The position numbers and the translations under genes were made by a program. This document shows positions 3,865 to 64,000 of a stretch of 64,000 nt of DNA, piece after piece (within the stretch, counting starts at the first letter, position 1; each line of letters begins with the position of its first letter). Under the pieces are notes generated by a model, which saw nothing but the letters and a program-made list of their open reading frames with translations, was not told the origin of the DNA and searched no databases. Origin of the DNA: Rhodococcus coprophilus NBRC 100603 (GTDB lineage Bacteria; Actinomycetota; Actinomycetes; Mycobacteriales; Mycobacteriaceae); NCBI RefSeq assembly GCF_001895045.1, contig NZ_BDAM01000003.1, forward strand, positions 434,001-498,000, written 5' to 3'.

Positions 3865-4788
3865 TCAGCCTCCGAACACCGGACCGCCACCGAAAAAAGC
3901 TCGATGCGAAATCGGCTGATTCCCATCGACATCCACAACTCCGTACTCCGGTCCCGTCTCCGCCGTGATGAGTGTCGAGCCGCTTCGGCGGTTCACCTCA
4001 GGATCCGACGCCAGCGCGACGACGACGCGACCGACGAACTCGGGAGTCTCGGCGTCGGCCAGCGGAAAACCCTGGAAGTTGTCGAGTCCGCGAGCCAGCA
4101 TGGCCTCGTTCTTTACCAGCCCCGGCCAGAGCGACAGCGTGGTGACGCCGGTGCCACGCAATTCCACCGCCATATCGGCAGCCATCTTGTCGAGGCCCGC
4201 CTTCGACATTCCGTACAGCACCGAGTGCAGGTGACCGCGCGTACCGAAAGACGAGATGTTGACGATCATTCCGGTGCTTCGCGGCACCATCATCCGGGCC
4301 GCCTCCACCGAGGCCACGTAGTGAGCGCGGAGGCCGACACCGACGAGGCTGTCCCAGTCCTCGACGGGGCGCTGCCAGAACGGCTCGGTGAAACCGGCGA
4401 AACCTTTCGGGGCGGCCCACACGTTGTTCACGAGCACATCGAGCCGCCCGTTCTGCTCGCGGGCGATGGCAGCGAAGAGATCGCGGATCTGGGAATCGTC
4501 GCGATGATCGCACTGCACCGCGATGCCGTGACCACCACGCTCGGTGACGATCTCTGCGGTGCGATCCAACGGCCCGTCCACACCGACGGGTCCGCGGCCC
4601 GTGACGTAGACCGTCCAGCCGGCGGATCCGAGCGCGCAGGCGATGCCCTTGCCGACACTTCGGCTGGCGCCGGTGACGAGAGCCACCTTCCGAACTGCTT
4701 CGGCTCCCGTCATGTCGGCTCCCGTCATGTCGGCTCCCGTCATGTCGGCTTCCGTCATGTCGGCTCCCGTCATGTCGGCTTCCGTCAT
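3865..4788 (-). CDS. SDR family NAD(P)-dependent oxidoreductase with repeated N-terminus
   Basis: A classical short-chain dehydrogenase/reductase of up to 307 residues. It shows the cofactor loop GASRSVGKGIA (about residues 40-50), the NNVW strand, a SSFG catalytic serine segment and the YGMSK Tyr/Lys pair. Substrate unknown. The first 30 residues are six copies of MTGAD/MTEAD, encoded by a perfect 15-bp tandem array (4701-4790). Every copy carries GGGAG or GGAAG, a 5-nt gap and ATG, so translation could start at any of the six. The last ATG gives a normal SDR N-terminus. It follows the SnoaL-like gene with a 1-nt gap (TGAcATG), suggesting an operon with coupled translation. Confidence 0.88.
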   Translation of the reverse strand: MTEADMTGADMTEADMTGADMTGADMTGAEAVRKVALVTGASRSVGKGIACALGSAGWTVYVTGRGPVGVDGPLDRTAEIVTERGGHGIAVQCDHRDDSQIRDLFAAIAREQNGRLDVLVNNVWAAPKGFAGFTEPFWQRPVEDWDSLVGVGLRAHYVASVEAARMMVPRSTGMIVNISSFGTRGHLHSVLYGMSKAGLDKMAADMAVELRGTGVTTLSLWPGLVKNEAMLARGLDNFQGFPLADAETPEFVGRVVVALASDPEVNRRSGSTLITAETGPEYGVVDVDGNQPISHRAFFGGGPVFGG

Positions 4789-4790
4789 GT
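4701..4790. repeat. Six tandem 15-bp repeats holding reiterated RBS-ATG units
   Basis: Six head-to-tail copies of CGGCTCCCGTCATGT (plus strand) at 4701, 4716, 4731, 4746, 4761 and 4776. Copies four and six differ by one base (CTTCC for CTCCC). On the coding minus strand each unit reads as a ribosome site followed by ATG, in frame with the SDR, and the array reaches the last bases before the upstream stop codon. The 15-bp period keeps frame, so copy-number change would alter the number of starts and N-terminal length without disrupting the gene. Confidence 0.97.
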
Positions 4791-5272
4791 CACTGCACCA
4801 CTTTCACGTCGTCGGTCAGAGCGCGTTCGATGGACCACAGGACGCGCACATGACACTTCGAGATCTTCCACTCGCCGTCCTCGACCACGTAGTCGTCGTC
4901 GTAGTCGAGTGCGGTGACCCGTTCGGTCCGAGCGCTCATATCCACCTGGCGAAACCGCAACGTCCATTCACCGGTCGCGGTCTCCGGACTCGTGAGGCGA
5001 ATACTGGGATGCATCCCGTGATGCATATCGAGGACGACGAATCGATCGTCGACGCGCTGAAGCGCGATCCGGGAGTACACGGCCACCAGGCCGTCTGCGT
5101 CGTCGAAGCTGCCGAGCGCCGGGCCGTAGTAGATGTCGGCGCCTTCTGCCACGAAGCACGCACGCATACCGGTGGGGTCCTTCGCGTCGCAGGCGCGAAA
5201 ATAACGGTGCTTGAGCATCCGGATCTCTTCGAGGGCTTCGAGTCGCGCCAATCGATCCTCGATGGTCGGCAT
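4790..5272 (-). CDS. SnoaL/NTF2-like domain protein
   Basis: A 160-residue protein with the SnoaL_4-type opening MPTIEDRLARLEALEEIRML followed by HRYFRACDAKD. This is the first helix set of the NTF2-like alpha+beta cone fold. Members act as small cyclases, hydratases, isomerases or ligand-binding subunits; nothing here fixes which. The start at 5272 has a GGGGG-rich site upstream and gives a standard N-terminus; the longer reading to 5350 adds unlike sequence. It precedes the SDR at 3865-4788 by 1 nt, so the two are probably co-transcribed and may act on one small-molecule substrate. Upstream is a 188-bp divergent gap facing the carotenoid-like genes. Confidence 0.8.
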   Translation of the reverse strand: MPTIEDRLARLEALEEIRMLKHRYFRACDAKDPTGMRACFVAEGADIYYGPALGSFDDADGLVAVYSRIALQRVDDRFVVLDMHHGMHPSIRLTSPETATGEWTLRFRQVDMSARTERVTALDYDDDYVVEDGEWKISKCHVRVLWSIERALTDDVKVVQ

Positions 5273-5460
5273 GCGTGGAACCCCCGTGCAGGTTGTGGCG
5301 TGGTCGGCTGGGCCATCCTGGCACAGATTCGCATTCTTCGGACCTTCCACCGAGTGCTTGTCTCCGCGGTTCGGGCATGGCCGACCCGATGTCGTGATTG
5401 GCTGTGTTCGCGGGTGTGCGCGGCACCGGCGACGGAGATCACCCGGAGGGAGACCGCCCG

Positions 5461-5649
5461 ATGACCACGACTTCCAGGACCCGCCCCCGGTACGAAGTAG
5501 CCGACCGGATCATCCCCGGGTCGGACGTCCTCGACTCCCAGAACACCCATCGCCCCCGGTGCCCGGTGCTGATCCCCGACCGTCACTGCTCCCCCGAGGA
5601 TGCTCCGGGCCCAGGCCTTCCTGCCCTCGGCGACACCGGACCCCGATGA
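5461..5649 (+). CDS. Short hypothetical ORF coupled to the CrtU-like gene
   Basis: A 62-residue open frame with a good GGAGGGA ribosome site about 8 nt before ATG. Its TGA overlaps the ATG of the next gene (ATGA), the usual sign of translational coupling. The product is rich in Pro, Arg, Asp and Gly and has four Cys/His-flanked segments (for example RPRCPVLIP and DRHCSPED), but I recognise no domain. It may be a real small protein, a translated leader that delivers ribosomes to the oxidoreductase, or a remnant of a longer gene. The function is unknown. Confidence 0.45.
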   Translation: MTTTSRTRPRYEVADRIIPGSDVLDSQNTHRPRCPVLIPDRHCSPEDAPGPGLPALGDTGPR

Positions 5650-7217
5650 CGACCCGCCCCCACGTCGATCCGCGGCGCGTGCGGCATTGCGCACCCCCTG
5701 GTCTCGACGACGCCGCACTGCTCCCGGCGCGCCCACACGTAGTCGTCGTCGGTGCCGGTATCGCCGGGCTCGCAGCGGCCACCGGCCTGGCCGAACGCGG
5801 CGTGGATGTGGACGTCGTCGAACGTGAAGACCACATCGGCGGGCGGGTCGGAGGCTGGACCGATCACCTCGCCGACGGCACCCCGGTCGCGGTCAACCGT
5901 GGATTCCACGCCTTCTTCCGGCAGTACTACAACCTGCGGGCACTGCTGCGCCGCGGCGACCCCGGACTCCGGGTCCTGACCGCGCTCGACGACTACCCAC
6001 TGATCGATGCATCCGGTCGACGAGACAGCTTCCGCGGTCTTCCCCGCACACCGCCGTGGAACGCACTCGGCTTCGCACTGCGCAGCCCCACCTTCAGCTT
6101 GCTCGACCTGATTCGCGTCGATCCGCGAGCCGCCGCGCCGCTGGCCGCCGTCTCGGTTCCCGAGATCTACCATCGGCTCGACCACCTCGACGCCGAAACG
6201 TTTCTCGAGCAGATCAACTTCCCACCCGCCGCCAGGCACCTCGCGTTCGAGGTGTTCTCACGCAGTTTCTTCACCGAACCGGGCAAGATGTCGGCTGCGG
6301 AGCTGGCCACGATGTTCCACATCTACTTCCTCGGCTCGAGCGAGGGCCTGCTCTTCGACGTGGCCGACACCAATTTCGACGAACTGTGGTTGCCGCTGCG
6401 CGAATACCTGACGGCCGAGCCGACCCCGTCCCGCACGGGCACCGTGCGCTTTCACACCGGTGTCGCCATCTCGACCGTCGACACCACCGCCGGTCCCCCG
6501 TTTCGGCTCTTCGACACCACAGGTGCGAGCATGGATGCCGACGGAGTGGTTCTGGCCACCGACGCCACTGCACTCCGTCGGATCGTGGCGGCCTCACCCA
6601 CCCTCGGCGACACCGCCTGGCAGACCAGGATCGGGAAGCTGGACGCTGCACCCGAATTCCTCGTACATCGGCTCTGGCTCGACCGGCCCGTCGACGACGA
6701 CCGCCCGGCGTTTCTCGGCACCGGCAGTCTCCACCCACTCGACAACATCAGCATCGTCGACCGCTACGAACGCCAGGCCCGCGAATGGGCGCAACGGCAC
6801 GGAGGCTCGGTGGTCGAACTCCACGCTTACGCGTTGCCCGAGCCCCCGGCCTCCGACCCGGACCGGGATGCACTGCAACAGCAGATCGTCGCGCGACTGC
6901 ACGCCCTGTATCCCGAAACCGCCCAGGCCCGCGTCCTCGGCGAACGGCTGTTGTATCGGCGGGACTGCCCCCGCCTCGGTCCCGGAGACTTCGCCGAGCG
7001 GCCCACCGTGGCTACTCCGCACCGCGGATTGGCGCTGGCCGGGGACGGAATCCGAATCGACCTGCCGGTGGCGTTGATGGAGCGGGCCGCCACCACCGGC
7101 TGGTCGGCCGCCAATCACCTGCTCGGCCAATGGGGTATTCGCGGCCACGATCTGTACACCGTGCCCACCCGAGGCCGGTCGGCACTGCTCCGGCGACTGG
7201 CGACTCAAGAAAGCTGA
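5646..7217 (+). CDS. FAD-dependent carotenoid desaturase/methyltransferase-like (CrtU-like)
   Basis: A 523-residue flavoprotein of the phytoene-desaturase superfamily. The FAD Rossmann motif VVVVGAGIAGLAAA is at about residues 36-49, followed by EREDHIGGRVGG. A C-terminal FAD signature reads LALAGDGIRIDLPVALMERA then TTGWSAANHLL. The length, the C-terminal ALMERAATTG segment and pairing with a DUF5914 Rieske protein fit CrtU-like enzymes that aromatise carotenoid end rings (isorenieratene or chlorobactene type), known in Rhodococcus and Streptomyces. No other carotenoid gene (crtE, crtB, crtI, crtY) is in the window, so the role is inferred. The start overlaps the short upstream ORF; the Rieske gene follows after 5 bp. 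Another FAD amine-oxidase-fold enzyme is possible. Confidence 0.68.
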   Translation: MTTRPHVDPRRVRHCAPPGLDDAALLPARPHVVVVGAGIAGLAAATGLAERGVDVDVVEREDHIGGRVGGWTDHLADGTPVAVNRGFHAFFRQYYNLRALLRRGDPGLRVLTALDDYPLIDASGRRDSFRGLPRTPPWNALGFALRSPTFSLLDLIRVDPRAAAPLAAVSVPEIYHRLDHLDAETFLEQINFPPAARHLAFEVFSRSFFTEPGKMSAAELATMFHIYFLGSSEGLLFDVADTNFDELWLPLREYLTAEPTPSRTGTVRFHTGVAISTVDTTAGPPFRLFDTTGASMDADGVVLATDATALRRIVAASPTLGDTAWQTRIGKLDAAPEFLVHRLWLDRPVDDDRPAFLGTGSLHPLDNISIVDRYERQAREWAQRHGGSVVELHAYALPEPPASDPDRDALQQQIVARLHALYPETAQARVLGERLLYRRDCPRLGPGDFAERPTVATPHRGLALAGDGIRIDLPVALMERAATTGWSAANHLLGQWGIRGHDLYTVPTRGRSALLRRLATQES

Positions 7218-7222
7218 CCGTG

Positions 7223-8266
7223 ATGAGCATTCTGGAACCGTTGTACCGGCGGTGGCCGCACAGCTGGCCGCTGCAACCCGTTGCGCCGAGCACCTGGACG
7301 AAACAGGAGCCGACCTATCGAGCCGCCGACCCTCGCCTGATCCGGACGATCCTCGATCGAACGCAGCAGCAGCCCTCCGGCAACTGGTACGTCTTCGCGG
7401 CCAGCAGCGACATTCGCACCGATCGCCCCACTGCCGCCACCGTCGCCGGCGTCGAACTCGTCGCCTGGCGCGACTCGGGGCGGCAACTTCGCGTCGGTCC
7501 CGGCGCCTGCCCCCACCTCGGCGCGCCCCTGGCGTCGGCAGTTCTCGACTGCGGCGCACTGGTATGCCGATGGCACGGTCTACGTCTGGGGCCTGACGGC
7601 GAACGCGGGTGGCCGCTCTATCCCAGTCACGACGACGGGGTCCTCACGTGGGTCCGCCTCGACCGGATCGGCGGAGAATCGCCGCTGGATACACCTGTCG
7701 TCCCGGCGAGGCCACCTGCCGACGCCCACCTGACGGCGGTAGCAACCCTCACCGGAGTCTGCGAACCGGCCGACATCGTCGCCAATCGTCTCGACCCGTG
7801 GCACGGTGCGTGGTTCCACCCCTATTCCTTCGCTCATCTCGAGGTCGTCGAGGCGCCCACGCGGGACCGAACCGGTGACGAGGACGACCGTTTCGTCGTC
7901 GCCGTGACCTTCCGCGTCGCCGGCCGGATCGGCGTCCCGGTCCTCGCCGAGTTCACCAGCCCAGAACCCCGCACTGTCGTCATGCGCATCATCGACGGTG
8001 AAGGCACCGGCAGTGTCATCGAAACGCACGCAACACCTCTGGGGCCAGGCCCGGACGGTCGCCCCCGCACCGCTGTGATCGAGGCCGTCATCGCCTACTC
8101 CCCCCGTGACGGATTCACCACTGCACGCCGTGTGGAGCGCGCCCTGACTCCGATGCTTCGCGGTGCGGCCAGACGTCTGTGGCGCGACGACCTCGCTTAC
8201 GCCGAAAGGCGTTACCTGCAACGCACCCGAACCGATCACACAACCCGCCCTCGGCCGCCGACCTGA
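7223..8266 (+). CDS. DUF5914-type Rieske [2Fe-2S] protein
   Basis: A 347-residue protein with an N-terminal Rieske domain. The ligands are visible as CPHLG (Cys96, His98) and CRWHG (Cys115, His118), the C-X-H...C-X2-H pattern of Rieske 2Fe-2S centres. The rest resembles the DUF5914 family and has no non-haem iron oxygenase motif that I can identify. It starts 5 bp after the CrtU-like gene (ATG at 7223, with an in-frame GTG just before), so it is almost surely co-transcribed and may carry electrons to the flavoenzyme or act on its product. No membrane segment is seen. The functional link to carotenoids is inference from adjacency. Confidence 0.75.
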   Translation: MSILEPLYRRWPHSWPLQPVAPSTWTKQEPTYRAADPRLIRTILDRTQQQPSGNWYVFAASSDIRTDRPTAATVAGVELVAWRDSGRQLRVGPGACPHLGAPLASAVLDCGALVCRWHGLRLGPDGERGWPLYPSHDDGVLTWVRLDRIGGESPLDTPVVPARPPADAHLTAVATLTGVCEPADIVANRLDPWHGAWFHPYSFAHLEVVEAPTRDRTGDEDDRFVVAVTFRVAGRIGVPVLAEFTSPEPRTVVMRIIDGEGTGSVIETHATPLGPGPDGRPRTAVIEAVIAYSPRDGFTTARRVERALTPMLRGAARRLWRDDLAYAERRYLQRTRTDHTTRPRPPT

Positions 8267-8390
8267 AGGGCCGAGCCGAGGCGAGAACCCGAATCGGGTC
8301 GTCACGAGTTCTCCTGTCGGCCGGTGAGTTTCACCCGATTCGCGGCGACCACGGAATTGTCTCTCCTGCTGCGGATTTCCCTGGACCACG

Positions 8391-8420
8391 ATTCGTCGAA
8401 CAGACCGTAGTTCGACGAAT
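8391..8420. promoter_or_regulatory. 11-bp perfect inverted repeat upstream of secreted-protein gene
   Basis: Arms ATTCGTCGAAC (8391-8401) and GTTCGACGAAT (8410-8420) are exact reverse complements around an 8-nt spacer. The site ends 72 bp before the start of the secreted protein at 8493. Its arm length and modest GC content fit a dimeric repressor operator, for example TetR type, better than a terminator. No regulator gene is adjacent. Confidence 0.5.
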
Positions 8421-9604: not shown

Positions 9605-9962
9605 CTCGGAATCGTCCGACGAACGCAACGACTCCGGCACGATCCGGGCGGCCGATCCGACCCGCGTATTCGCAGCACTCTCCGACGACACGAGGTGGCG
9701 TCTGCTGCAGCGACTCGGCCTCTCCCCCGCGTCCGCGTCCGGGCTGGCAGGTGAATTCACCGTCTCACGCCAGGCCATCGCCAAGCACCTGTCGATCCTC
9801 GAGGACTGCGGCCTGGTGACATCGGAGCGCGTCGGCCGCGAAGTCCGTTTCTCCGCAGCAGGCTCCCGGTTGAGTGCGGTGGGCAGGACGCTCGAAGCCG
9901 TGGGGTCGGGATGGGACCGGCGGCTCGCCGCAGTCAAGAAGGCGGCGGAGCGCCCACGTTGA
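9591..9962 (+). CDS. ArsR-family winged-helix transcriptional regulator
   Basis: About 123 residues of a compact winged-helix repressor: VFAALSDDTRWRLLQRL, then GLAGEFTVSRQAIAKHLSIL (recognition helix) and the wing GLVTSERVGREVRFS. No metal-binding Cys cluster of classical ArsR sensors is present, so it is probably not a metal sensor. The start is uncertain: TTG at 9591 gives a short overlap with the SRPBCC gene, while ATG at 9528 would overlap it by 77 nt. It is likely co-translated with the SRPBCC gene and may regulate this operon, sensing a ligand or the partner protein. That link is inferred from the common ArsR/SRPBCC pairing. Confidence 0.85.
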   Translation: MPHSDSESSDERNDSGTIRAADPTRVFAALSDDTRWRLLQRLGLSPASASGLAGEFTVSRQAIAKHLSILEDCGLVTSERVGREVRFSAAGSRLSAVGRTLEAVGSGWDRRLAAVKKAAERPR

Positions 9963-10171
9963 GCACAGGCTGCGTCCGGAAGCTGCCACTGCGGCGAGGT
10001 TGATCTTCGGGGTTGTCCTCCCGGGCAAGATCCGGTTCCGAACCGGAGGTGCCGTATCGCGCCGAGGGCAACCATGGATGTATGAAACGTCTGCTCCGGG
10101 ACCTCGTTGCGGCCTTCGCCGTCGCACTGGTGGCGGCTGTGGCCAATGCCTCCGCCGTGGCCTACACATAG

Positions 10172-10466
10172 ATGAGTGCGAATGTCGACACCGTCGGACG
10201 AGTCCGGTTCTGGTCAACGCGTCGACGGCGCGAGTGTTCAATTTCTCGTGGGCGTCCGGCATGCCCTTCGACCTTGTCGGCAGCGACGGTGGCCTGCTCG
10301 AACATCCCACGCCCGTGAGCAGCGTTCAGCTTTCTCCCGGTGAGCGCGCCGAGATAGTCGTGCGCCGCGGGTCGGCAGGCTCGACCGAGACCCTGACATG
10401 CCGTACATATGCCACTGCCACCTGTTGCGGCACGAGGACGACGGAGTGATGGCCCAGTTCGTCGAC
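10172..10466 (+). pseudogene. Remnant of a multicopper oxidase
   Basis: Three pieces of a CotA/CueO-like multicopper oxidase survive in different frames. NVDTVGRVRF (10181-10210) runs into LVNASTARVFNFSWASGMPF and DLVGSDGGLLEHPTPVSS up to GERAEIVV (about 10210-10360) after a one-base frameshift near 10210. Then, in a third frame, the C-terminal copper motif HCHLLRHEDDGVMAQF appears (10410-10460). The roughly 200 residues normally between IVV and HCH are missing, as are the N-terminal copper ligands. The last fragment has no stop and runs in frame toward the MMPL start. It cannot encode a working oxidase. The 291 bp after it, up to the MMPL start, hold no gene I can support. Confidence 0.8.
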
Positions 10467-10763
10467 ACGGCAGCTGACCTGCCCAAACGAACCGGGGAAT
10501 ACTTCCCGAACCCGCTGTGTTGGAATCGCATGGATCGGCGCGTCAGTACGCCCCGGAGCCAGTATGAATGGCCTTCGTGGAATACCGTCCGGCTGGAGCC
10601 ACGTTGCGCGAGACGCCGTGAGGCATCGGGCGCGTCGGTCCGCCTTCTTCTCTCTCCCGCGAGCGGCCCTCCGGTACCTCGTGAGTGGTACAGCTGCGGA
10701 CCCAGATTCTCCCGCCAGTACAGTTGCCGTTCGGTAACCGAGGCAACCGAAACGGGAGTGTGC

Positions 10764-15926: not shown

Positions 15927-16463
15927 TCAGCGTCTGTTTCCTCGCACCCGCCGCAGTCCTGCTCTCCCCCACACCCGCAGAAAACCTTGCGTGAGGTAGC
16001 CCAAGCAGCCGAGGGCCAGCACCCATTTGGTCAGGCTGATCGTCGTCGCGGCGCGCACGGTCGTATCGTCGATGCGGTTGCGATGGTCGAGCAGGTACAG
16101 CCCGGTGATGTTCTCTGCGTAATCCCCGGCCGCAGCGATCACGGGTGCGGCGGCGAGGAGCCTGCGTGTGCGGGGTGCCAGCGGACGGTGATGATCGAGG
16201 GCACGGGCACCGTCCCGGAGCGCGATGGCAAACGTCAACGGATGCACCATGTCCCAGTAGTAGTGCCGCCGGTACCGGCTGATCTCGTCCGGACCCAGGT
16301 TGTCGAGGATCTTCCGGTACTTGTCCGCCGAGAAAGTGGCCTGAATCGTGCCGACGGTGAGTGCGGTGGGGCCGAGGACGCGGCCCATGTTTGCCTGGGA
16401 CGCCAGGAACAACAGCGACGATCCGATGAGCCGGCGATCCGATTCGGTCAGTGCCATGCCCAT
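15927..16463 (-). CDS. Small integral membrane protein of unknown function
   Basis: About 178 residues with hydrophobic segments LIGSSLLFLAS near the N-terminus, HPLTFAIALRDG in the middle, AAAPVIAAAGDYAENITGLY, and WVLALGCLGYLTQGF at the C-terminus. This fits three or four TM helices ending in a basic tail (RVRGNRR). No family recognised. Several starts are possible: GTG 16478, ATG 16463 or ATG 16457, none with a clear ribosome site. It lies 29 bp before the Suc_Fer-like gene and may be its operon partner. Its start faces the type VII-like cassette at 16538. Confidence 0.65.
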   Translation of the reverse strand: MGMALTESDRRLIGSSLLFLASQANMGRVLGPTALTVGTIQATFSADKYRKILDNLGPDEISRYRRHYYWDMVHPLTFAIALRDGARALDHHRPLAPRTRRLLAAAPVIAAAGDYAENITGLYLLDHRNRIDDTTVRAATTISLTKWVLALGCLGYLTQGFLRVWGRAGLRRVRGNRR

Positions 16464-16537
16464 GATGGTAGCGCTCACACCCCCGGTGTCGGATTTGTGC
16501 GTTATGGTGTCCGCGCTACCGAACGTCTGGGGGGACG

Positions 16538-16843
16538 ATGGCGGATACGATCAGGGCAGACATCGACGAATTATTGTCGTTGTCAAAGGATTTCCAGGGA
16601 ATTGCAGGCCGTATCGGCCGTATCGACACCCGTTCGATCTCGGTGGGAGCAGCCGAGGGCTTCCCGGGCGGTGCCGCGGTCGTCGAGGCACTCGCAGCAG
16701 TCGAGTCCGCGTCGCAACGCGCAGTGTCACTCCTCGCCGACCGCGCCTGGTCGACGTCCGACACCATCGACCGGGTCGCCGCGGACTACGAGAACACCGA
16801 CGAGTACTTCGCCGCCGGATTGGCGCAGGCAGTTCCCGAGTGA
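16538..16843 (+). CDS. EspC/DUF2580-like small ESX-associated protein
   Basis: A 101-residue all-helical protein resembling the ESX-1 secretion-associated EspC/DUF2580 group: helix one RADIDELLSLSKDFQGIAGR, then a helix ending WSTSDTIDRVAADYENTDEYF. The Y-x3-D/E-like end (YENTDE) resembles the general type VII secretion signal. Such proteins are usually secreted as partners of larger ESX substrates. The next gene starts inside its stop codon (GTGA), so the two are translationally coupled. The nearest ESX apparatus gene in the window is eccC4, 46 kb away. Confidence 0.7.
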   Translation: MADTIRADIDELLSLSKDFQGIAGRIGRIDTRSISVGAAEGFPGGAAVVEALAAVESASQRAVSLLADRAWSTSDTIDRVAADYENTDEYFAAGLAQAVPE

Positions 16844-19275
16844 TCCCCACGATCACCGGTGTCCGCAACTGGACGCCCGCCGTCCTCCACGACAGAGCAA
16901 AAGCCGTCGACACGGTTGCTGCACACCTCGACAACGAACGCGGCGCTCTGACGGACACCGCAGGCACGCTGTGGCAGTCCTGGCAAGGACGTGCAGCAGA
17001 CGCGGCGGAGAAACACCTGTACACGGAACGTCGCTCCGTCGTGGCCGTCGTCGAGCATCTGCGGCACGTCGCCGACCAACTCCGCCGCGCCGATACCGCG
17101 CTCACCTGGTCGGTTCTGGCGGTGCGCAATGCGATCGCGAACGCCGAGCGGGCGGGTTTCACTGTCGACGACAGCGGCGTGAAAGCCGACCGCCACACGG
17201 ACGACTCGGCCGCTGCAACCCAGGACGCCGCCACTGAGCACGCCGAGGCGATCCGGCGCGCGCTGGTCACCCTCGGCGAACTGGACGATCACTATGCAGA
17301 AATCCTCCGGGAGATCGTTGCGGATCTCATCGCGAGCACTCCCAAACCTGCGCCGCTCTCCCCCGAGGAGGCAGTCCGCGACCGGGCCATCTTCGACGAC
17401 GGAAAACTCGACGGCGACGAGGTCGGGCGATTGCTGGCCAACCTGACCGCTGCCGGCCTCGACACCGACTCCCTCGCCGATCTCGCGACGGGCAGAGAGG
17501 TCACACACCTGCCCACCGGGGCGATCCGATACCTCGAAGAGTTGTATCACCGGGGTGGAGCCGAACAATTCCTTCTCTTGCAGAACGCACTCGACGAGGA
17601 CGGCAGCCCGCAGGCCGTGGCGGCGGGGCGGGCACTCAGCGCCGGAATCCTCACTCTGTCGAACGAGAACATCGTCGACGGCGACGGACACAGCGGTGGC
17701 TGGGACAGACTTCCGCCGGACGTTCGCGCCCTCGTGCAGTTGAATCCGGCCGACTCCGCACCGGCGACTCTCGACGACTACCTGCGCTCGCTTTCGCCGT
17801 TCGAGCGATCCCGGCTGGAAGCCGATCCGGGCGCGGCCGCCCGCGCACACGCCGAGATGCTGCGCGATCCGGGAAACCACTACGCCCAGCGCCTCGGCGT
17901 CCAAAACGAGTTCTGGGGACGAGTAGCCGGCGCCGAAGGTATCCCCGGCACTCGGCTCGGAGTAGAACTCGTCGAATCCGCAGCGATACAAGTGGGCCTC
18001 TCCGACTCCGATGGCCGTTCGGCAATCGCCTCCGCGTCGTACGCATTCCCGATCGGACTCGGCGAAGCCATGCTCGACGTCGGCACCCGGAACAACGAGA
18101 CCAACGCTCGTATCCTCACCGGCGACCTCGACGGCGACGGCAGTCCCGAGACTCGACGCGACGCCATCCTCACGCCGTTGTTCGTCCACGAGTGGAACGA
18201 CGACGGCGCCTCGCTCGGCCGGCTGACATCGTGGATGACGGAGGAGAGCCTCGCCGGGCACGGCGAGACCGGCTCGCTCGACACGGAACGCCGCGACCGC
18301 GCGGACCGTGCGGCTCTCGGACTGGCGCAATACCTTTCGGACGGTGAAAACTACTCACGCTTCATGGACATGAGCGGGCCCGACACCGCGAACCTCGGCG
18401 AGGTGAATCCTGCGCTGCTGCACGCGACGAGTCAGGGCCTCGTCGGGTACATCCCCCACCTCGCCGGCATCGACACCGACAGCCGCGAGTGGGGTCACCG
18501 TGCAGCAGAATCCAGTGACGCCGGCGACAAGCGTTTTGCCCATGCTCAGCGTGTGTTCGCCCTCATGTCGACGGGAACCGACGCGAACACCACCTTCATG
18601 GGCGGCGCCCTTGCGTTCCACGAAACCTACGATCGCGCGTTCGTTCGCAGCCTCATCGAGCCCGACAAGTGGGGTGAGATATCCCCCGATACCGCGGCCG
18701 CCGGAAACGCGGCCCACATCCAGGCACTCGTCGACACCGGCATCTACGCCGCCGCCGTCGAACAGTCTCGGGACCAGGAGAACATCGCGAACACGGTTGC
18801 CGAACGCCGCAGCCAGGCTTACGACACCGGCTACACGATGATGCGCAACGCGGTCGCGTCGTTCGTTCCCGCCAACTTCACGGTCGGCATGACTATGGAC
18901 ATGCTCAACCCGGGTGTTCGCGACACCTTCACGATTCCGGAAACGCCGGCGGAAGATTTCGCGTTCACCGTGAACGAGGCGCAGCTGACTGCGGAAAACG
19001 ATGTCCGGATCGCACGGTTGCTGGTCGGTACCAACTGGGAACCCGAGAGCCCAAGAGCGATCAGCGCTCTGACCGACGCAGGCATATTGGCGGACGACGG
19101 CAGGCTCTCGACTAATCCTGATCCGCTCTCGACGCGAAGCTCTCAGAGGGTGCACACACTCATCGAGGATGGCGTGGAGAACGGGTTCGGATCTGACTAT
19201 CTCAATCGTTACACGGAAGAATACCGGCGGAGTTACCACGACGTCGCTCCCACCGTTCACTTCACTTCGAACTGA
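16840..19275 (+). CDS. Large WXG-headed protein, probable type VII secretion substrate
   Basis: An 811-residue protein starting at a GTG that overlaps the previous stop. Residues 1-140 are helical and carry a WXG-type turn (LWQSWQGRAADAA, about residues 44-56), then long heptad-like helices. The remaining 650 residues match no domain that I can name, though they recall mycobacterial proteins labelled TPR repeat region. Three Asp-rich loops look like calcium-binding EF-hand/dockerin loops: FDDGKLDGDEVG (near 185), VDGDGHSGGWD (near 278) and GDLDGDGSPE (near 427). No TM helix or Sec signal is visible. The EspC-like partner and a following lipoprotein suggest an exported three-component system. 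A toxin or cell-wall enzyme role is possible but unsupported. Confidence 0.65.
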   Translation: MIPTITGVRNWTPAVLHDRAKAVDTVAAHLDNERGALTDTAGTLWQSWQGRAADAAEKHLYTERRSVVAVVEHLRHVADQLRRADTALTWSVLAVRNAIANAERAGFTVDDSGVKADRHTDDSAAATQDAATEHAEAIRRALVTLGELDDHYAEILREIVADLIASTPKPAPLSPEEAVRDRAIFDDGKLDGDEVGRLLANLTAAGLDTDSLADLATGREVTHLPTGAIRYLEELYHRGGAEQFLLLQNALDEDGSPQAVAAGRALSAGILTLSNENIVDGDGHSGGWDRLPPDVRALVQLNPADSAPATLDDYLRSLSPFERSRLEADPGAAARAHAEMLRDPGNHYAQRLGVQNEFWGRVAGAEGIPGTRLGVELVESAAIQVGLSDSDGRSAIASASYAFPIGLGEAMLDVGTRNNETNARILTGDLDGDGSPETRRDAILTPLFVHEWNDDGASLGRLTSWMTEESLAGHGETGSLDTERRDRADRAALGLAQYLSDGENYSRFMDMSGPDTANLGEVNPALLHATSQGLVGYIPHLAGIDTDSREWGHRAAESSDAGDKRFAHAQRVFALMSTGTDANTTFMGGALAFHETYDRAFVRSLIEPDKWGEISPDTAAAGNAAHIQALVDTGIYAAAVEQSRDQENIANTVAERRSQAYDTGYTMMRNAVASFVPANFTVGMTMDMLNPGVRDTFTIPETPAEDFAFTVNEAQLTAENDVRIARLLVGTNWEPESPRAISALTDAGILADDGRLSTNPDPLSTRSSQRVHTLIEDGVENGFGSDYLNRYTEEYRRSYHDVAPTVHFTSN

Positions 19276-19279
19276 GACG

Positions 19280-20047
19280 ATGCACCAGACAACAGCGATA
19301 CTCGCCGCTGCCTTCCTGACACTCTCGGCGGGGTGCGGCACGCCGACAGAACACACTGACAACACGCGTGTTGCCGAACCACAACCCCACGAGTGGGTCG
19401 CTATCGACGACGTTTCAGTCCGCTGGACCGCAGTTCCGGGCATCGACCTGGACGCACCCGAAGTTCTCCTTGCACGGGCGTTCGGAGAATCCGAACTGTT
19501 CTACGAAATCACCGGCCGGCTCGAATCGACCTATGAAGGATTCGCAGAGACAGTGCCATATCTTCTCGACAACGGCGGACGCACTTACCCTCGCATCGGG
19601 ACGGTGAACAATCACGTCTTCGAGGTGCGTCCACTCCCCGATAGATTCGGACGCCCGTCATATCTCGTCGCCTATTGCACCGACGAATCCGAGACAGCCG
19701 TACCCACAGGTGACGCGTGGAAAACGAGCAGCTACGCACTCAGCCATCCCCGCGTTCTCGCCATCACCCGCACCGGTTGGAATGTGCCGGCTCCTCAGGT
19801 GAATACGGCGGTCCGTACGTCCCACCCGTCCTGGAATGTCTTCGAGGGCTGGGAGATACGTCTCGGAACGAGCGTGGGGAATGACTTCTTCGCTCTCAGC
19901 AAACCCGAGGATCGAGCACTGAATGACTACTGCATCCTGGACCATCCGCCCAGCAACGGGGGTTTCGCCCGCGACCAGCCTCTCGAGACTCCTCCCGTTG
20001 CCCAACCTTCCGTTCCCGGATGGCCACAGCGCGTCGAGGGTCCCTGA
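19280..20047 (+). CDS. Lipoprotein of unknown function
   Basis: A 255-residue lipoprotein. The signal peptide MHQTTAILAAAFLTLSAGC ends in a lipobox (LSAGC) with Cys19 as the acylated residue. The mature part has two further cysteines (AYCTDE and DYCILD) and no domain I recognise. It starts only 4 nt after the stop of the 811-residue protein, so it belongs to the same operon as the EspC-like and WXG-headed genes. A lipoprotein could anchor, fold or neutralise the exported partner outside the membrane; this is inference from gene order. Confidence 0.75.
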   Translation: MHQTTAILAAAFLTLSAGCGTPTEHTDNTRVAEPQPHEWVAIDDVSVRWTAVPGIDLDAPEVLLARAFGESELFYEITGRLESTYEGFAETVPYLLDNGGRTYPRIGTVNNHVFEVRPLPDRFGRPSYLVAYCTDESETAVPTGDAWKTSSYALSHPRVLAITRTGWNVPAPQVNTAVRTSHPSWNVFEGWEIRLGTSVGNDFFALSKPEDRALNDYCILDHPPSNGGFARDQPLETPPVAQPSVPGWPQRVEGP

Positions 20048-20061
20048 CCCGAATTGCTGGA

Positions 20062-20976
20062 TCAGATGTCGTAGTCCACGACGACCGGTGCGTGGTCGCT
20101 CATCCGGCGATCCTCTGCGGGTTCCCGGTCGGTGCCCGCAGCGACAGCGGTTCGGGCCAATCCCGGTGTCGCAAGGTGGTAGTCGATCCGCCACCCGACA
20201 TCGCGTGTGAACGATCCGGGGATCCACGACCACCACGAATACGGGCCGTCCACACCCGGGTACTGCGTGCGGACGACGTCGACGAGGGTGCGCGGCGAGA
20301 GCAGCGAGTCGAACCATTCCCGCTCTTCCGGAAGGAATCCCTCGGCCTGATTGCTGCGCCGCCAGTTCCGGACGTCGTACCGGGTGTGGGCGATGTTGAG
20401 GTCACCCATCAACAGCAGTTCTCTGCCCCGTGCGCGCGCCTCACGGCGGGATCGCGTCAGTTGTCGAGCGAACGCGTCCAGAAAACGCATCTTGCGCGCA
20501 TACCGGATCCCGCCGTCCGGTTCGTCCCTCATGCGGCCAGGTTTCTGCAGGTGTGCCGGGATGCCACCTTTCGGCAGATACAGCGACGCGACGGTTATCG
20601 GCGCATCCGCGAGATCGACCTCGATATAGCGGCCTTCGTCTGCGAATTCCCTCAGTCCACGGGCCAGCGGTCCGCGCTCGAGGGTGATCGTGTCGCTGTG
20701 ATCTTCACCGGGAGCCCGCACCAGTGCCGTCCCGCTCCACGTCCGTACCGCGGCGGGAGGGTCCATCGTCAGGACCGCGACGCCGTTGCGGCCCGGAATG
20801 ACACCCTCTTCGTAGGTGAAGTGATATTTGCCGAATACTCCCGGCGGAACAGCAGCGGCAGGAGCGCGCACTTCTTGCAGTGCAACCACGTCGGGCTGGC
20901 GCTCACGGAGCCAATCTTCGAATCCGCGTCGCTGCGCCGCACGAATACCGTTGATATTGAAGGTCGCGATACGCAC
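20062..20976 (-). CDS. xthA: Exodeoxyribonuclease III / AP endonuclease
   Basis: A 304-residue EEP-fold nuclease. It shows ATFNINGIRAA at residues 4-14 (metal-binding Asn), LQEVRAP (catalytic Glu), LLLMGDLNIAHTRYDVRNW (metal and catalytic Asp/Asn), VGWRIDYHLATPGL, and the terminal SDHAPVVVDYD with the catalytic Asp-His. It cuts DNA 5' of abasic sites and removes 3' blocking groups. The GTG start has a TACACT element 8 nt upstream, so a separate leaderless transcript is possible. It also lies 24 bp downstream of the alpha/beta hydrolase, in line with imuA'-imuB, so SOS read-through is possible. Confidence 0.95.
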   Translation of the reverse strand: MRIATFNINGIRAAQRRGFEDWLRERQPDVVALQEVRAPAAAVPPGVFGKYHFTYEEGVIPGRNGVAVLTMDPPAAVRTWSGTALVRAPGEDHSDTITLERGPLARGLREFADEGRYIEVDLADAPITVASLYLPKGGIPAHLQKPGRMRDEPDGGIRYARKMRFLDAFARQLTRSRREARARGRELLLMGDLNIAHTRYDVRNWRRSNQAEGFLPEEREWFDSLLSPRTLVDVVRTQYPGVDGPYSWWSWIPGSFTRDVGWRIDYHLATPGLARTAVAAGTDREPAEDRRMSDHAPVVVDYDI

Positions 20977-56963: not shown

Positions 56964-57313
56964 TGCGGCCGGCGGTCGAGGTGTGTGAGGGCGTCGTTGC
57001 CGGAAAGCCGGTTCAGGTTCTGCGCGACGCCCGCGTCGCGCTCGGTGTACCGGTCCGACACCGACCGCAAGTCGTCCGCCTGCGCGTTCACGACCGTCAC
57101 CCACTCGCCGAATGCGGTGCGTATGCGTCGATATCCTTCCTCGACCACGGCACCGCCCGTCCGGTAGCGCGCGCCGGCCGCACGAGGACCGAACTCCAGG
57201 TTCCCGAGAATGCGACGGCATTCGTGATCTGCGTCGTCCGCCGATCTCTCCAACCGGCCGGCGATCGCCGCGACGCCCTGTTCGTCGAACCGCACGCGAT
57301 CCTGTGCTGCCAT
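56960..57313 (-). CDS. Small helical ESX/WXG100-like protein (Rv3440c-like)
   Basis: A 117-residue all-helical protein (AAIAGRLERSADDADHECRR, then RTAFGEWVTVVNAQADDLRS and SDRYTERDAGVAQNL). It looks like the small EspC/WXG100-type partner of the Rv3439c-like protein and overlaps it by 4 nt. Matches M. tuberculosis Rv3440c in place and size. It has no classical W-x-G, but the two-helix shape and the YTERD tail are like type VII secretion partners. The pair is not next to ESX apparatus genes but only 3 kb from the ESX-4 locus. Confidence 0.75.
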   Translation of the reverse strand: MAAQDRVRFDEQGVAAIAGRLERSADDADHECRRILGNLEFGPRAAGARYRTGGAVVEEGYRRIRTAFGEWVTVVNAQADDLRSVSDRYTERDAGVAQNLNRLSGNDALTHLDRRPQ

Positions 57314-60210: not shown

Positions 60211-60516
60211 TCACCCCGGAAAGCGAGCCTGATTCCGTCGTTCGGTCGCCATCATGTCGTCGTTTCCGCTCGACACGATCCGGCCGATGTCCTGCAGCAC
60301 CTGGATGAGGCCGGCTTCGGCCCGGTTCCACCGCTGCTGCGTCGCGACGTAGTCGGCCTGAGCGTCACCACTCCACGTCGACACCAGCGGCGCTACCTGC
60401 GCTTCGATTCGATCGAGGGTGTCCCTGATCGCTTTCTCGCCCGAGACGAGACGCGAATGCAGATCTGCGACGCCCGCAAAGTTCTGGAAGATCTCGGTTC
60501 CACCATCGACTGCCAC
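60211..60516 (-). CDS. esxT: ESX-4 WXG100 protein EsxT
   Basis: A 101-residue WXG100 protein. The hairpin turn motif Trp48-Ser-Gly50 lies between two long helices (GEKAIRDTLDRIEAQVAPLV; DAQADYVATQQRWNRAEAGL). GTG 60516 has a clear AAAGGAG site. It should form a heterodimer with EsxU and leave through the ESX-4 machinery (EccB4, EccC4, EccD4, MycP4). It is 46 bp downstream of esxU. ESX-4 is the ancestral ESX system, linked to DNA transfer and toxin export in some species. Confidence 0.93.
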   Translation of the reverse strand: MAVDGGTEIFQNFAGVADLHSRLVSGEKAIRDTLDRIEAQVAPLVSTWSGDAQADYVATQQRWNRAEAGLIQVLQDIGRIVSSGNDDMMATERRNQARFPG

Positions 60517-60562
60517 TGTTCGTGCTCCTTTGCTGGATTCAGGGTGCGGGACGGACCCGGGG

Positions 60563-60925
60563 TCAGAACGAACCGTGGAGAAGGGAACCGGCACCGGGAT
60601 CGACGGCACCGAGCGCCCGCGCGTTCTCCTGTTCGGTCGCGTAGTACGAGCGACCGCTGGTCCGGACCGCTTCCGCCAGTTCGTCGAGCGCGGCGGTCAG
60701 GTTGGTGTTGTTGACGTTCCAGCGCTCCATGATTCCTGCGAACCTGGTCGCGGACACGCCCCGCCAGACCGACGGCGCGGACTGCACGACGTCGCCGAGC
60801 ACTCGAAGAATTCCCACGAGTTCGTTACGAGAATCCTGAAGTTGCCCCGCGACCACCTCCATGGTCGCGACATCTGTGCTCAAGCCATTGTTGCCGGACC
60901 CTGCTCCGGCCGACGGTGCGGTCAC
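60563..60925 (-). CDS. esxU: ESX-4 WXG100 protein EsxU
   Basis: A 120-residue WXG100 protein, the partner of EsxT. The turn Trp54-Arg-Gly56 (SVWRGVSATRFAGIMERW) joins two helices, and the C-terminal helix ends YYATEQE, a Y-x3-D/E-like type VII export signal. GTG 60925 has an AAGGAG site. A Gly/Ser-rich 15-residue N-terminus precedes the first helix. It lies 136 bp after the Rv3446c-like gene. Confidence 0.92.
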   Translation of the reverse strand: MTAPSAGAGSGNNGLSTDVATMEVVAGQLQDSRNELVGILRVLGDVVQSAPSVWRGVSATRFAGIMERWNVNNTNLTAALDELAEAVRTSGRSYYATEQENARALGAVDPGAGSLLHGSF

Positions 60926-61061
60926 GAGTGCTCCTTCGATTGTTCCGCGCACCGGCTGTCTCAGCCCCCCAGTCGGTCTGAGCCGGATGCGTTTACAGAA
61001 GGTTGGACGCCGCGACCGGCCGGACGGTTCCATTCCGTGCGGAATCGGTCGCGAATTGTTT

Positions 61062-62537
61062 TCAACCGGTCCGGATCGTGTGCACCGCCTGTTCGCATTC
61101 GCTCCGGATCCCCGCCCATTCGCCGCCGAGATATTGGCACCCCACCGCCGCCTGCAAGCCGGGAAAGACCACCACCGACCATCGCACCTCCGAGAACTCG
61201 TCGGGTACTTCGGTGTAAGCGATCACACTTCTGTCTGCAAATGTGGTGTCCGAGTCCAAGTTTCGTATCACCTGGCCGCGCTCGGCCGCTCGCGCGCCGA
61301 GGACAGCCGCTACCGCCCCCTCGTCCATTCCGCTCGCCAGGACGCTGTAGACGATGACGATCCGTCGATCACTACCCGACGAGGGGACCAACTCGGCGCG
61401 TCCCGACTCGGCGGTCTCCGGATTGCGCAGTCGCCAGGAACTCGGTAGATCGAGTTGCACCGGGCCGACGTCGAAGCGCGTCGCGCCACGCTCGCCGTGT
61501 TCGGTGCCGGGTGGCCCGTCTCCCTCCGGACTCCGGCCGACGGCGATCTCGGTGTCGAGGTCGGTGGCCGTTGCGCCCGGTCTCTCCGGCCGGCGAGATT
61601 CGGGTGCGCCGACCCACAAGAACAGCGCCGCGAGTACACCCGCGGTCGCCACTCCGACCAGCACTGTGCCGATCCGCCTGGTCCGAGCGTCCGGTGCGGG
61701 CCCCGACGGCCGGACCTCCTGCAACCACGGCACCGGTGAGGACACCTCTGCGCGGGAGGGGTTCTCAGGGAGTGGGCTCGCCATCGATCTCGTCATTTCG
61801 GCGGCGTCGACCGAAACCACCGGCGGGGTCCCGATCCCGTCGCCGCTCCGGTCCCACGCGGATACGGGCGCGGGTCCACCACCCGCGACGATCAGAACGA
61901 AGGTGCCGTCCTGATCGGCTGTCACCGCCGTGATCAACGACGCGACAGTCTGTTCTGCCGCGAGGTCTGGGACAGCGGCGAGATCCGCCACAGTGATGTC
62001 CGGGGCGCGAGCGACGCGGCCGATCTCCGGGCTGTCGTGTACCGGTCCCGGCACCACCGATGTGGCGGTGACACCACGCTCGCCGATCTCGAGTACGACG
62101 TACCCCTCGGCGCCCTCGTGCGGTGAGGCACGGCACGCCGCGATCGCCACCGGAACCAGCACCGCGTTCTGCGCGATCTGGCGAGCGGCGCTGTGCAACA
62201 GTCGGCGACGACGCTCGTTCCACCACGTCGGATGCACGACGACCGCGGTGTCCACCGTGGGCGGCGCACCGACCGCCGCGGCTGCGTACCGCACGAGGCC
62301 GGTCAGGAGGACGCCGGGATCGGGCACCTCCGCCGGCGACGAGGCCGTCCCACCGAGGTGGTCGACGGTCTCGACGACGTCGACCGGGTCCGGGGAGTCG
62401 CGGGCAGCGTCGCCGAACAACCATCCGACGCCGAGCCGGGCAGCGTCCGCCGGTATCGACTTGGACGTCTCTCCCCACCGCGCTTGGATTCGACCCGGCA
62501 GCACGGCCAGGACCAGCGTGTCGGACGGCGAAGTCAC
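61062..62537 (-). CDS. ESX-4 associated membrane protein (Rv3446c-like)
   Basis: A 491-residue type VII secretion-associated protein. The N-terminal half (about residues 1-290) looks like a degenerate Hsp70/actin-type ATPase fold (LVLAVLPGRIQARWG; VDTAVVVHPTWWNERRRRLL; YVVLEIGERGVTATSV). A TM helix follows (GTVLVGVATAGVLAALFLWV, about residues 305-324), then an outer domain with VQLDLPSSWRL and ending CQYLGGEWAGIRSECEQAVH. The start is GTG 62537 (overlap GTGA with eccC4) or ATG 62552. The outer part has two Cys that may pair. It may couple EccC4 activity to the cell wall; function unproven. Confidence 0.85.
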   Translation of the reverse strand: MTSPSDTLVLAVLPGRIQARWGETSKSIPADAARLGVGWLFGDAARDSPDPVDVVETVDHLGGTASSPAEVPDPGVLLTGLVRYAAAAVGAPPTVDTAVVVHPTWWNERRRRLLHSAARQIAQNAVLVPVAIAACRASPHEGAEGYVVLEIGERGVTATSVVPGPVHDSPEIGRVARAPDITVADLAAVPDLAAEQTVASLITAVTADQDGTFVLIVAGGGPAPVSAWDRSGDGIGTPPVVSVDAAEMTRSMASPLPENPSRAEVSSPVPWLQEVRPSGPAPDARTRRIGTVLVGVATAGVLAALFLWVGAPESRRPERPGATATDLDTEIAVGRSPEGDGPPGTEHGERGATRFDVGPVQLDLPSSWRLRNPETAESGRAELVPSSGSDRRIVIVYSVLASGMDEGAVAAVLGARAAERGQVIRNLDSDTTFADRSVIAYTEVPDEFSEVRWSVVVFPGLQAAVGCQYLGGEWAGIRSECEQAVHTIRTG

Positions 62538-64000
62538 GGCAGCGGCGACCATGCGGTCTGTACGAGTGCCACACCGTTGCGCCGCACCAGCATTCCCCGC
62601 CCCGGCGGCATCGGCGCAGGACGCACCGCTCCTACGAGAGCACCTTCTTCGCGGTTGCCGCTCATCACCAGACCGGGGCTGGAAAGCTCGCGCAAGCGGG
62701 CGAGGACCGGCTCGAACAGTGCCCGGCCGGCTCCCCCGGCTCGGCGTGCGACCACGAGATGCAACCCGATGTCCTTGGCCTGTGGCAGATAGTCGAGCAG
62801 CGGGGTCAGTGGGTTCTGTCCGCTGGTCGCGACCATGTCGTAGTCGTCGACGATCACGAAGACCTCCGGCCCGGTCCACCACGAGCGGTCGCGCAACTGC
62901 TGCTGGGTGGTATCCGGTCCCGGGAGGCGACGCTCGAAGATGCCGGCGAGTTCCTGCGCCATCGCGGCCAGGACGCTCGCGGCCGGCGCGTAACCACCGA
63001 GGTGGTCTCCCTCGACCACGCCGAGCAGGGCGCGGCGGTAGTCGCCGACGATGATGCGTACCTGGTCTGCGGTGTTCGATTCCGTCAACCCGCGGCAGAT
63101 CCCCCGCAGCAGTGCCGTCTTGCCGCAGCCGGAATCGCCGAACACCAGGAGGTGCGGACTGTCGGTGAAGTCCACGGCGGCCGGGGCGAGTTCGGCTTCG
63201 TCGATGCCGATCGGAATCGTGAGACGCACCGCGGCAGGCGCATCCGTGGTGCTCGGCCGTGGAAGCGCCGCGAGCACATCGGCGCGGTCGACGATTTCCG
63301 GCAGCATCCTGACCCGCGGCGCAGCACCTCTGGTGGCCCCCGCGATCGCCGCGACGGCTCCCGCCACACCGGCACCGAGGTCGGTAGTGTCCGAGAGCCC
63401 GTCCACTCGCGGCAGCGCCACCAGGATATGGAGCCCGTCGCGGTCGATTCCGCGACCCGGACGCCCCTCGGGCACCGTCGCCGCCTTCTTCCGCCCGTAC
63501 TCCGAATCGGACGGGTCACCGAGGCGCAGTTCGAGTCGGGTACCGAACTGGTCGCGCATCGCCGGTCGGACGTCCCCCCACCGAGGAGCACTCAGCACCA
63601 CATGTATTCCGTACGAAAGCCCCTGGGAAGCCAGGACACTCACGATCTGTTCGAGAGCCTCGAAATCGTTGCGGATGCTGGGCCACCCGTCGATCACGAG
63701 GAACACGTCGCCGAACGGGTCGATGGATGCGTCGAACGTGCCGTCCGCCCGACGCCGGCGCAATTCGGCCATGGACTCGATACCGAGTTCACCGAACAGT
63801 CGTTCGCGGCTCCGCAACAACGACACGAGTTCCGCGACAGTGCGCCGTACCCGGTCGGCATCGAGCCGGGTTGCCACCGATCCCACGTGCGGCAGAGCCG
63901 CCACACCCGCGAGCGCCCCGCCTCCGAAGTCGAGGCAGTAGAACTGCACCTGTTCGGCGGTGTGCGTGAGCGCCGTCGACAACACGAGTGTGCGCAACAG
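62534..64000 (-). CDS. eccC4: ESX-4 FtsK/SpoIIIE-type ATPase EccC4 (partial)
   Basis: The C-terminal 488 residues of EccC4; the 5' end lies beyond the window. The stretch covers the end of ATPase domain 2 (FGDVFLVIDGWPSIRNDFEA, then YGIHVVLSAPRWGDVRPAMR) and all of domain 3, with Walker A FGDSGCGKTALLRGI and a Walker B-like EVFVIVDDYDMV. EccC is the motor that recognises WXG100 substrates, here EsxT/EsxU, and drives export across the inner membrane. It reads into the Rv3446c-like gene with a 4-nt overlap. Confidence 0.95.
   Translation of the reverse strand: MLRTLVLSTALTHTAEQVQFYCLDFGGGALAGVAALPHVGSVATRLDADRVRRTVAELVSLLRSRERLFGELGIESMAELRRRRADGTFDASIDPFGDVFLVIDGWPSIRNDFEALEQIVSVLASQGLSYGIHVVLSAPRWGDVRPAMRDQFGTRLELRLGDPSDSEYGRKKAATVPEGRPGRGIDRDGLHILVALPRVDGLSDTTDLGAGVAGAVAAIAGATRGAAPRVRMLPEIVDRADVLAALPRPSTTDAPAAVRLTIPIGIDEAELAPAAVDFTDSPHLLVFGDSGCGKTALLRGICRGLTESNTADQVRIIVGDYRRALLGVVEGDHLGGYAPAASVLAAMAQELAGIFERRLPGPDTTQQQLRDRSWWTGPEVFVIVDDYDMVATSGQNPLTPLLDYLPQAKDIGLHLVVARRAGGAGRALFEPVLARLRELSSPGLVMSGNREEGALVGAVRPAPMPPGRGMLVRRNGVALVQTAWSPLP

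Follow-up and report, generated by a model that had tools for sequence, protein, structure and literature searches.

We describe a three-gene locus of Rhodococcus coprophilus NBRC 100603 that is probably an interbacterial, and likely kin-directed, effector-immunity module exported by the type VII secretion system ESX-4, a reading made by comparison of sequences. The locus lies in a stretch of 64,000 nucleotides of contig NZ_BDAM01000003.1 (positions 434,001 to 498,000, forward strand; hereafter the window, whose own numbering is used). Gene A encodes a small putative export partner, gene B a large candidate effector and gene C a lipoprotein proposed to confer immunity. The trio recurs throughout the genus, the end of B changes together with C as a recombining block, and relatives carry displaced remnants, tandem arrays of C and, in mycobacteria, lipid-anchored copies of effectors. 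Loci fetched for comparison are numbered L and genomes G; L001, from Rhodococcus sp. 105337, is the sister locus of the window.

Features of the window (position, strand, description):
16538..16843, +, gene A: 101-residue EspC-like putative export partner, C-terminal YENTD (Y84-D88)
16840..19275, +, gene B: 811-residue TPR_23 candidate effector with WXG100-like head, TPR_23, conserved body and variable tail
16870..17103, +, WXG100-like head, B residues 11-88, W48-Q49-G50 (PF06013 E 6.5e-6, TIGR03930 E 6.8e-6, both below cut-off)
17449..18234, +, TPR_23 domain (PF23275), B residues 204-465, from a Pfam match
18742..19005, +, B residues 635-722, counterpart in alignment of the stretch that effector-derived lipoproteins of mycobacteria lack; hydrophobic peak at residues 671-689
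18985..19272, +, variable tail, B residues 716-811, low GC content at third codon positions (GC3), from sequence comparison
19280..20047, +, gene C: 255-residue lipoprotein (Cys19), perhaps NTF2-like, proposed immunity protein
18901..20100, +, divergence island relative to the sister strain (B tail and C), limits to about 300 bases
60211..63985, -, nearest type VII secretion genes: WXG100 pair, Rv3446c-like gene and EccCb (ESX-4), from domain matches

Layout, domains and spread of the trio

The three genes are packed exactly as a first-pass annotation of this DNA, made from the letters alone, had laid them out: B starts at a GTG inside a GTGA overlap with A, and C at an ATG four bases past the stop codon of B. 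No sigma-70-like promoter was found between 16400 and 20200 (0.5 expected). The body of B, which had been called unknown and of no named family, matches TPR_23 (E 2e-38, 132.9 bits, cut-off 27), described by Pfam as 'ESX-1 secretion-associated protein EspA-like, TPR repeats'. The WXG-headed N-terminus noted earlier is confirmed as WXG100-like; it scores 26.8 bits against PF06013, just short of the cut-off of 27.3, and 26.2 bits against TIGR03930 (cut-off 44.85). Residues 14-89 match EsxB in the PDB weakly (E about 0.3), and no significant solved homologue of B was found by sequence. EspA_EspE (PF18879) is absent from B up to E 1 in Pfam, and no lipase match was obtained. Eight relatives of B were found; all four that carry a name are Rhodococcus.

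The likeness of A to EspC, which the first-pass annotation had proposed together with its correct length, is weak: PF10824 matches with E 0.002 and 18.9 bits, under the cut-off of 23.5. Nine of 21 A proteins match this model at E <=0.01 (best 1e-4). The tyrosine of the C-terminal YxxxD/E signal is invariant in all 21 aligned A proteins, and the complete motif is present in 19 of them versus 28% of shuffles. The third gene does encode a lipoprotein, as had been noted, with a lipoprotein signal ending LSAG-C19. C has no match in Pfam or NCBIfam (in Pfam, nothing up to E 1), and none of 23 family members matches any Pfam model at 0.01, so the family is neither TilA (DUF576) nor LpqN-like. No solved homologue of C was found by sequence up to E 1; its fold is perhaps NTF2-like.

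It was also correct that no ESX apparatus gene adjoins the trio. An ESX locus starts at about 60.2 kb, which agrees with the earlier placing of ESX-4 40 kb away; its identity as ESX-4 is taken from that annotation and from the Rv3446c-like gene, which we assume to be a marker of ESX-4. The sole above-cut-off EccC of the genome sits there. Since each of the 18 genus genomes has one EccC locus over cut-off (split into pieces in G152 and G158; weaker matches stay below cut-off), ESX-4 would be the only obvious exporter.

TPR_23 occurs in 12 of 18 genomes of the genus and in 12 of 150 genomes of the order, the window's own counted in both. We compared 25 genus loci, that is, the window and 24 fetched regions that cover the other genus matches listed (L056 and L001 belong to one genome). 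Immediately upstream, 24 of the 25 have a homologue of A, the miss being L059 at a contig start; the match is fragmentary in L048, L068 and L069. Downstream, a same-strand homologue of C is likewise present in 24 of 25, the miss being L064 at a contig end. It mostly follows B directly; in L055 it lies ~1.9 kb downstream, behind an opposite-strand gene. Recurrence of the trio exceeds chance, as both partners stand on the same strand in 22 of the 24 other genus loci and the remaining two are truncated by a contig end. The cassette is thus not the orphan it had been thought to be, and within the genus B homologues keep the two partners whose general absence the first-pass annotation had named as counting against it.

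Outside the genus, 11 of 18 regions (L030, L033, L034, L036-L042 and L045) have a gene of 91-130 residues immediately before the TPR_23 gene, and none is called there in the other seven. In L039 and L040, from other actinobacteria, the pair adjoins EccC genes (E 5e-277 and 5e-216). G004, a genome of the order, has six TPR_23 genes (L034-L039), five of them preceded by a gene of 106-121 residues and one near an EccC gene. The earlier suggestion of a type VII substrate system consisting of partner, effector and lipoprotein therefore fits the WXG100-like head, the conserved tyrosine, the pairs beside EccC and the genus-wide trio, although outside the genus the small gene is present in only those 11 regions.

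Elsewhere in the window, about 3 kb from the ESX-4 locus, an overlapping gene pair (55566-57313, minus strand) encodes proteins of 117 and 465 residues with no Pfam or NCBIfam match; it is possibly another ESX-4 substrate pair.

Divergence of the B tail and gene C

Between close relatives, the identity of B drops near residues 680-730 and rises again over the last residues. The drop is from 82-100% to 58-65% for window/L001, from 92-100% to 41-50% for L060/L061 and from 72-95% to 30-52% for L062/L063. At the nucleotide level (300-base bins), the window and L001 are 89-96% identical over 16201-18900, 78-82% over 18901-20100, which spans the tail and C, and 82-91% beyond. L060 and L061 are 95-99% identical over 4801-8400 and 72-87% over the tail and lipoprotein (one bin with 36 bases aligned); past the lipoprotein the bins read 95%, 80% and 92% before returning to 95-99%, and the upstream bin 4501-4800 reads 80%.

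Synonymous divergence (dS) of the tail is about 2- to 26-fold that of the body in four pairs: window/L001 (body 0.16-0.30, tail 0.64; A 0.23), L060/L061 (0.06-0.08, 1.58), L062/L063 (0.55-0.65, 2.29) and L065/L066 (0.15-0.47, 0.96). For C, dS was measured in window/L001 only, where at 0.62 it equals the tail. Tail and C are both less conserved than the body in all 37 within-group pairs (18 loci), and both are also less alike than the body in L049/L046. Base composition marks the same stretch: GC3 of C is 0.66, below every one of 660 overlapping control windows of the same length from 53 other called genes, and that of the B tail is 0.69, equalled or undercut by 10 of 1271 control windows. Another pattern is seen in L048 and L050: their effector genes diverge in the opening part (bins 89-97%), yet the remainder, along with the tail, C and the genes further downstream, is common to both at 96-100% (C proteins 99.6%); the common tract extends beyond tail and C. 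Judged from these comparisons, the last ~100 residues of B form a recombining block with C.

Effector-derived lipoproteins and displaced cassettes

Lipoproteins related to the effector itself occur in the genus of G034, taken as Mycobacterium from its genes. In G034 (L028), three lipoprotein genes stand in tandem behind that of a 738-residue effector carrying EspA_EspE and TPR_23. Their products match the C-terminal half of this effector at 29-32% (E 8e-14 to 2e-21) and 38-42% identity (E 2e-10 to 3e-8) and skip effector residues ~573-661. A survey of this genus with one L028 lipoprotein gave matches in 90 of 248 genomes, many being effectors; among the matches listed, a separate lipoprotein frame of 301-484 residues occurs in 21 genomes, including G034 and, in broken form, G330 and G336. 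A lipobox, with a hydrophobic run before the cysteine, is present in 18 of 20 fetched frames; L085 has one in the called gene and L077 has none. No solved homologue of these lipoproteins was found by sequence up to E 1.

When 16 effectors and 21 lipoproteins (three of these from L028; L077, with neither the cysteine nor an intact effector, and L085 were left out) are placed in one multiple alignment, 19 of the 21 lipoproteins lack a block of ~65 residues (44-70 long among the effectors) entirely, and L078 and L080 retain 2 and 7 of its residues; the sequence on either side aligns. Pairwise lipoprotein-effector alignments give scattered gaps, several outside the hydrophobic peak, whereas the multiple alignment gives one common deletion. 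In the effectors the block is a weakly hydrophobic stretch around a conserved proline, and it maps to residues 635-722 of window B. The hydrophobic peak reaches 1.15 in the window and 0.66 in L028; some relatives, such as L029, are glycine-rich. In L091-L093 only a 146-161-residue N-terminal stub of the effector is called before an intact lipoprotein, as expected of an orphan immunity gene; these genomes have full-length effector matches elsewhere.

Two further arrangements were observed. In L032, from a genome of the same genus as G034, a lipoprotein gene akin to the Rhodococcus type (9932-10732, plus strand) comes right after a TPR_23 gene. In L051 (8362-10134, plus strand), directly after the C gene, stands a second TPR_23 protein in which a signal peptide and lipobox replace the WXG head and the hydrophobic segment is kept.

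Within the genus there are displaced cassettes. L066 has five lipoprotein copies; the single C of L065 shares 84% identity with the last of them, ahead of which stands a decayed remnant of an L065-like tail, and 47-53% with the other four. The C of L060 is collinear with the second copy of L061, to which it is 59% identical, versus 49% to the first. In L052, tail stubs of 39 residues stand ahead of two extra lipoprotein copies. L001 has a degenerate second C copy and, between the copies on the other strand, an Imm21 gene (E 9.6e-50); the part of the literature drawn on here places Imm21 among the families found in 'heterogeneous polyimmunity loci' (PMC3482391). At least two downstream copies of C are present in seven of 25 loci (L047, L052, L057, L061, L063, L066 and L067), and the two C matches of L059 may be a single frame-shifted gene.

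The trio occupies a chromosomal slot (window 15927-20976) flanked by a 183-residue gene and an exonuclease III-like gene. In 10 of the 12 genus genomes searched, both flanks have close homologues, spaced 1.2-2.1 kb. In the four of these ten that were fetched, the slot has no trio homologue and is occupied, judging by eye, by a dehydrogenase-like gene or by hydrolase-like and regulator-like ones. A phage origin was rejected, since there was no match to a phage record, no viral-contig relative was confirmed and the flanks are conserved in relatives. A plasmid origin was likewise rejected: a single record of the plasmid collection, a Nocardia farcinica replicon, matched at 26.5% over 36% of B.

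Proposed function, alternatives and related systems

The first-pass annotation had left the choice between exported toxin and envelope enzyme open; comparison across loci speaks for a polymorphic effector paired with lipoprotein immunity. We propose that A joins the WXG head of B in a helical heterodimer, EsxA/EsxB- or EspC/EspA-like, bearing the YxxxD export signal, and that this heterodimer would leave the cell through ESX-4. TPR_23 and the conserved body would act as the carrier, and the C-terminal half of B would arrive at the cytoplasmic membrane of a neighbour, on its outer side. There the weakly hydrophobic segment (around residues 661-700) would act on and disturb the membrane, with specificity set by the adjoining ~100 C-terminal residues. 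The membrane is suggested as the target by the predicted outside lipid anchor of the candidate immunity proteins and by the loss of the block in the mycobacterial ones. C, a lipoprotein outside the producer's membrane, would bind the variable end of B and block its action on self and siblings. Homologous recombination would swap tail and C as a unit, and displaced cassettes and tandem arrays of C would be its traces.

A more tentative proposal, which we hold to be possible and on balance doubtful, concerns the origin of immunity. The effector-derived anchored copy, with a lipobox in place of the export head and the membrane-inserting segment deleted, might be a dominant-negative immunity protein that co-assembles with the incoming effector at the membrane and poisons its pore; Rhodococcus might have replaced or complemented it with an unrelated lipoprotein exchanged with the tail.

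Several observations weigh against these proposals. C was not found to be a sequence derivative of B (blastp best E 3.2; hhalign of both families, probability 0.8%), so that the mycobacterial design is not demonstrated for the C of the window. The Spearman correlation between tail and C (0.78) is not above that between body and C (0.85; 18 loci, with L050, L055, L056, L059, L064, L067, L068 and L069 omitted), and specific co-evolution beyond phylogeny is therefore not supported. The ratio of nonsynonymous to synonymous change (omega) is below 0.5 in every segment; point-wise positive selection on the tail is thus unsupported (omega at most 0.42), and replacement by recombination fits better. 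The tails are divergent alleles of one domain, unlike the unrelated toxin domains of classical polymorphic toxins. At the nucleotide level, L060's C matches the two L061 copies almost equally well in its first bin (72% to the second, 71% to the first). No toxin domain was recognised in B with Pfam, NCBIfam, PADLOC or PHROGs, although many toxins have no domain model. The hydrophobic peak of B is modest, and no GxxxG zipper was seen in the segment when read by eye.

The strongest alternative, which we nevertheless think unlikely, is an EspA-like envelope or surface factor: A and B would be exported by ESX-4 and stay on the surface, C would be their membrane receptor, and tail and C would vary with exposure to phages or predators. 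Exposed pairs do diversify too, a receptor has to fit its ligand, the L028 member combines EspA_EspE with TPR_23, and EspA has been linked to cell-wall integrity in the part of the literature drawn on here (PMC2891827). B itself lacks an EspA_EspE match, however, and a receptor poorly explains up to five C copies, displaced C genes with decayed tails, the Imm21 neighbour and lipoproteins without a full effector.

ESX substrates often act on eukaryotic cells, so B might be directed at an amoeba or host, with C as periplasmic chaperone or anchor. This is improbable: a chaperone need not form a tandem recombining array nor outlive its effector, and no host-targeting domain was found in B by Pfam. 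A mating or kin-recognition module tied to ESX-4 or conjugation is, if anything, less probable still, as no transfer gene was noticed by name among the called neighbours (read by eye, no scan) and unrelated genes fill the same slot in four fetched relatives.

The effector-immunity reading places the trio among polymorphic toxin-immunity (PT-Imm) systems, with which it shares a conserved delivery part bearing a variable C-terminus and a partner directly downstream exchanged with the tail. The following published systems are compared as far as the cited parts of their accounts describe them. The PT-Imm cassettes of M. abscessus prophages (PMC8092301) also comprise a small WXG-100 partner and a large WXG-100-headed protein with variable C-terminus; their immunity proteins, several of them predicted lipoproteins, track that variation, and ESX-3 or ESX-4 is the proposed exporter. 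Those cassettes are prophage-borne beside attachment junctions and some have TNT-like toxin domains, whereas the trio lies between chromosomal genes and has a TPR_23 backbone, an EspC-like partner and a C without Pfam family. In the T7SSb of S. aureus, the toxin TslA has small helical partners and an extracellular immunity lipoprotein, TilA, in variable tandem copies; unlike B and C, TslA is a phospholipase with reversed domain order and TilA is DUF576 (PMC10730906). The glycine-zipper toxins EsxX, TelE and TspA act on membranes through a hydrophobic C-terminal segment, as proposed for B, with EsxX (EsxX-ExiCD) and TspA countered from the outside by immunity proteins bound to the membrane (PMC12744356). 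The window B lacks such a zipper, and its immunity candidate is a lipoprotein. Tandem EsaG and TipC arrays likewise consist of immunity paralogues evolving through recombination, although the proteins are different and from Bacillota (PMC9484751). The trio also resembles EspA/EspC of ESX-1, where a small EspC-like protein adjoins a large EspA-like substrate, but it has no EspA_EspE domain, no ESX-1 here, and a recombining tail with a lipoprotein.

The layout thus belongs to a known kind of type VII polymorphic effector-immunity system. Among the titles and abstract openings of the open-licence matches listed, none was found to describe TPR_23 proteins paired with lipoprotein immunity, the TPR_23 backbone as such, this lipoprotein family or the shortened anchored copies. 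For Bacillota, type VII secretion is well documented as a means of killing other bacteria, as the part of PMC10765036 drawn on here reports. The antibacterial role of ESX systems in Actinomycetota, ESX-4 above all, is in our judgement much less clear. The family described here is a chromosomal, conserved and testable candidate for such a role in rhodococci, which have one EccC locus. It also provides a proposed role for TPR_23 and, in Mycobacterium, hints at immunity of an unusual design.

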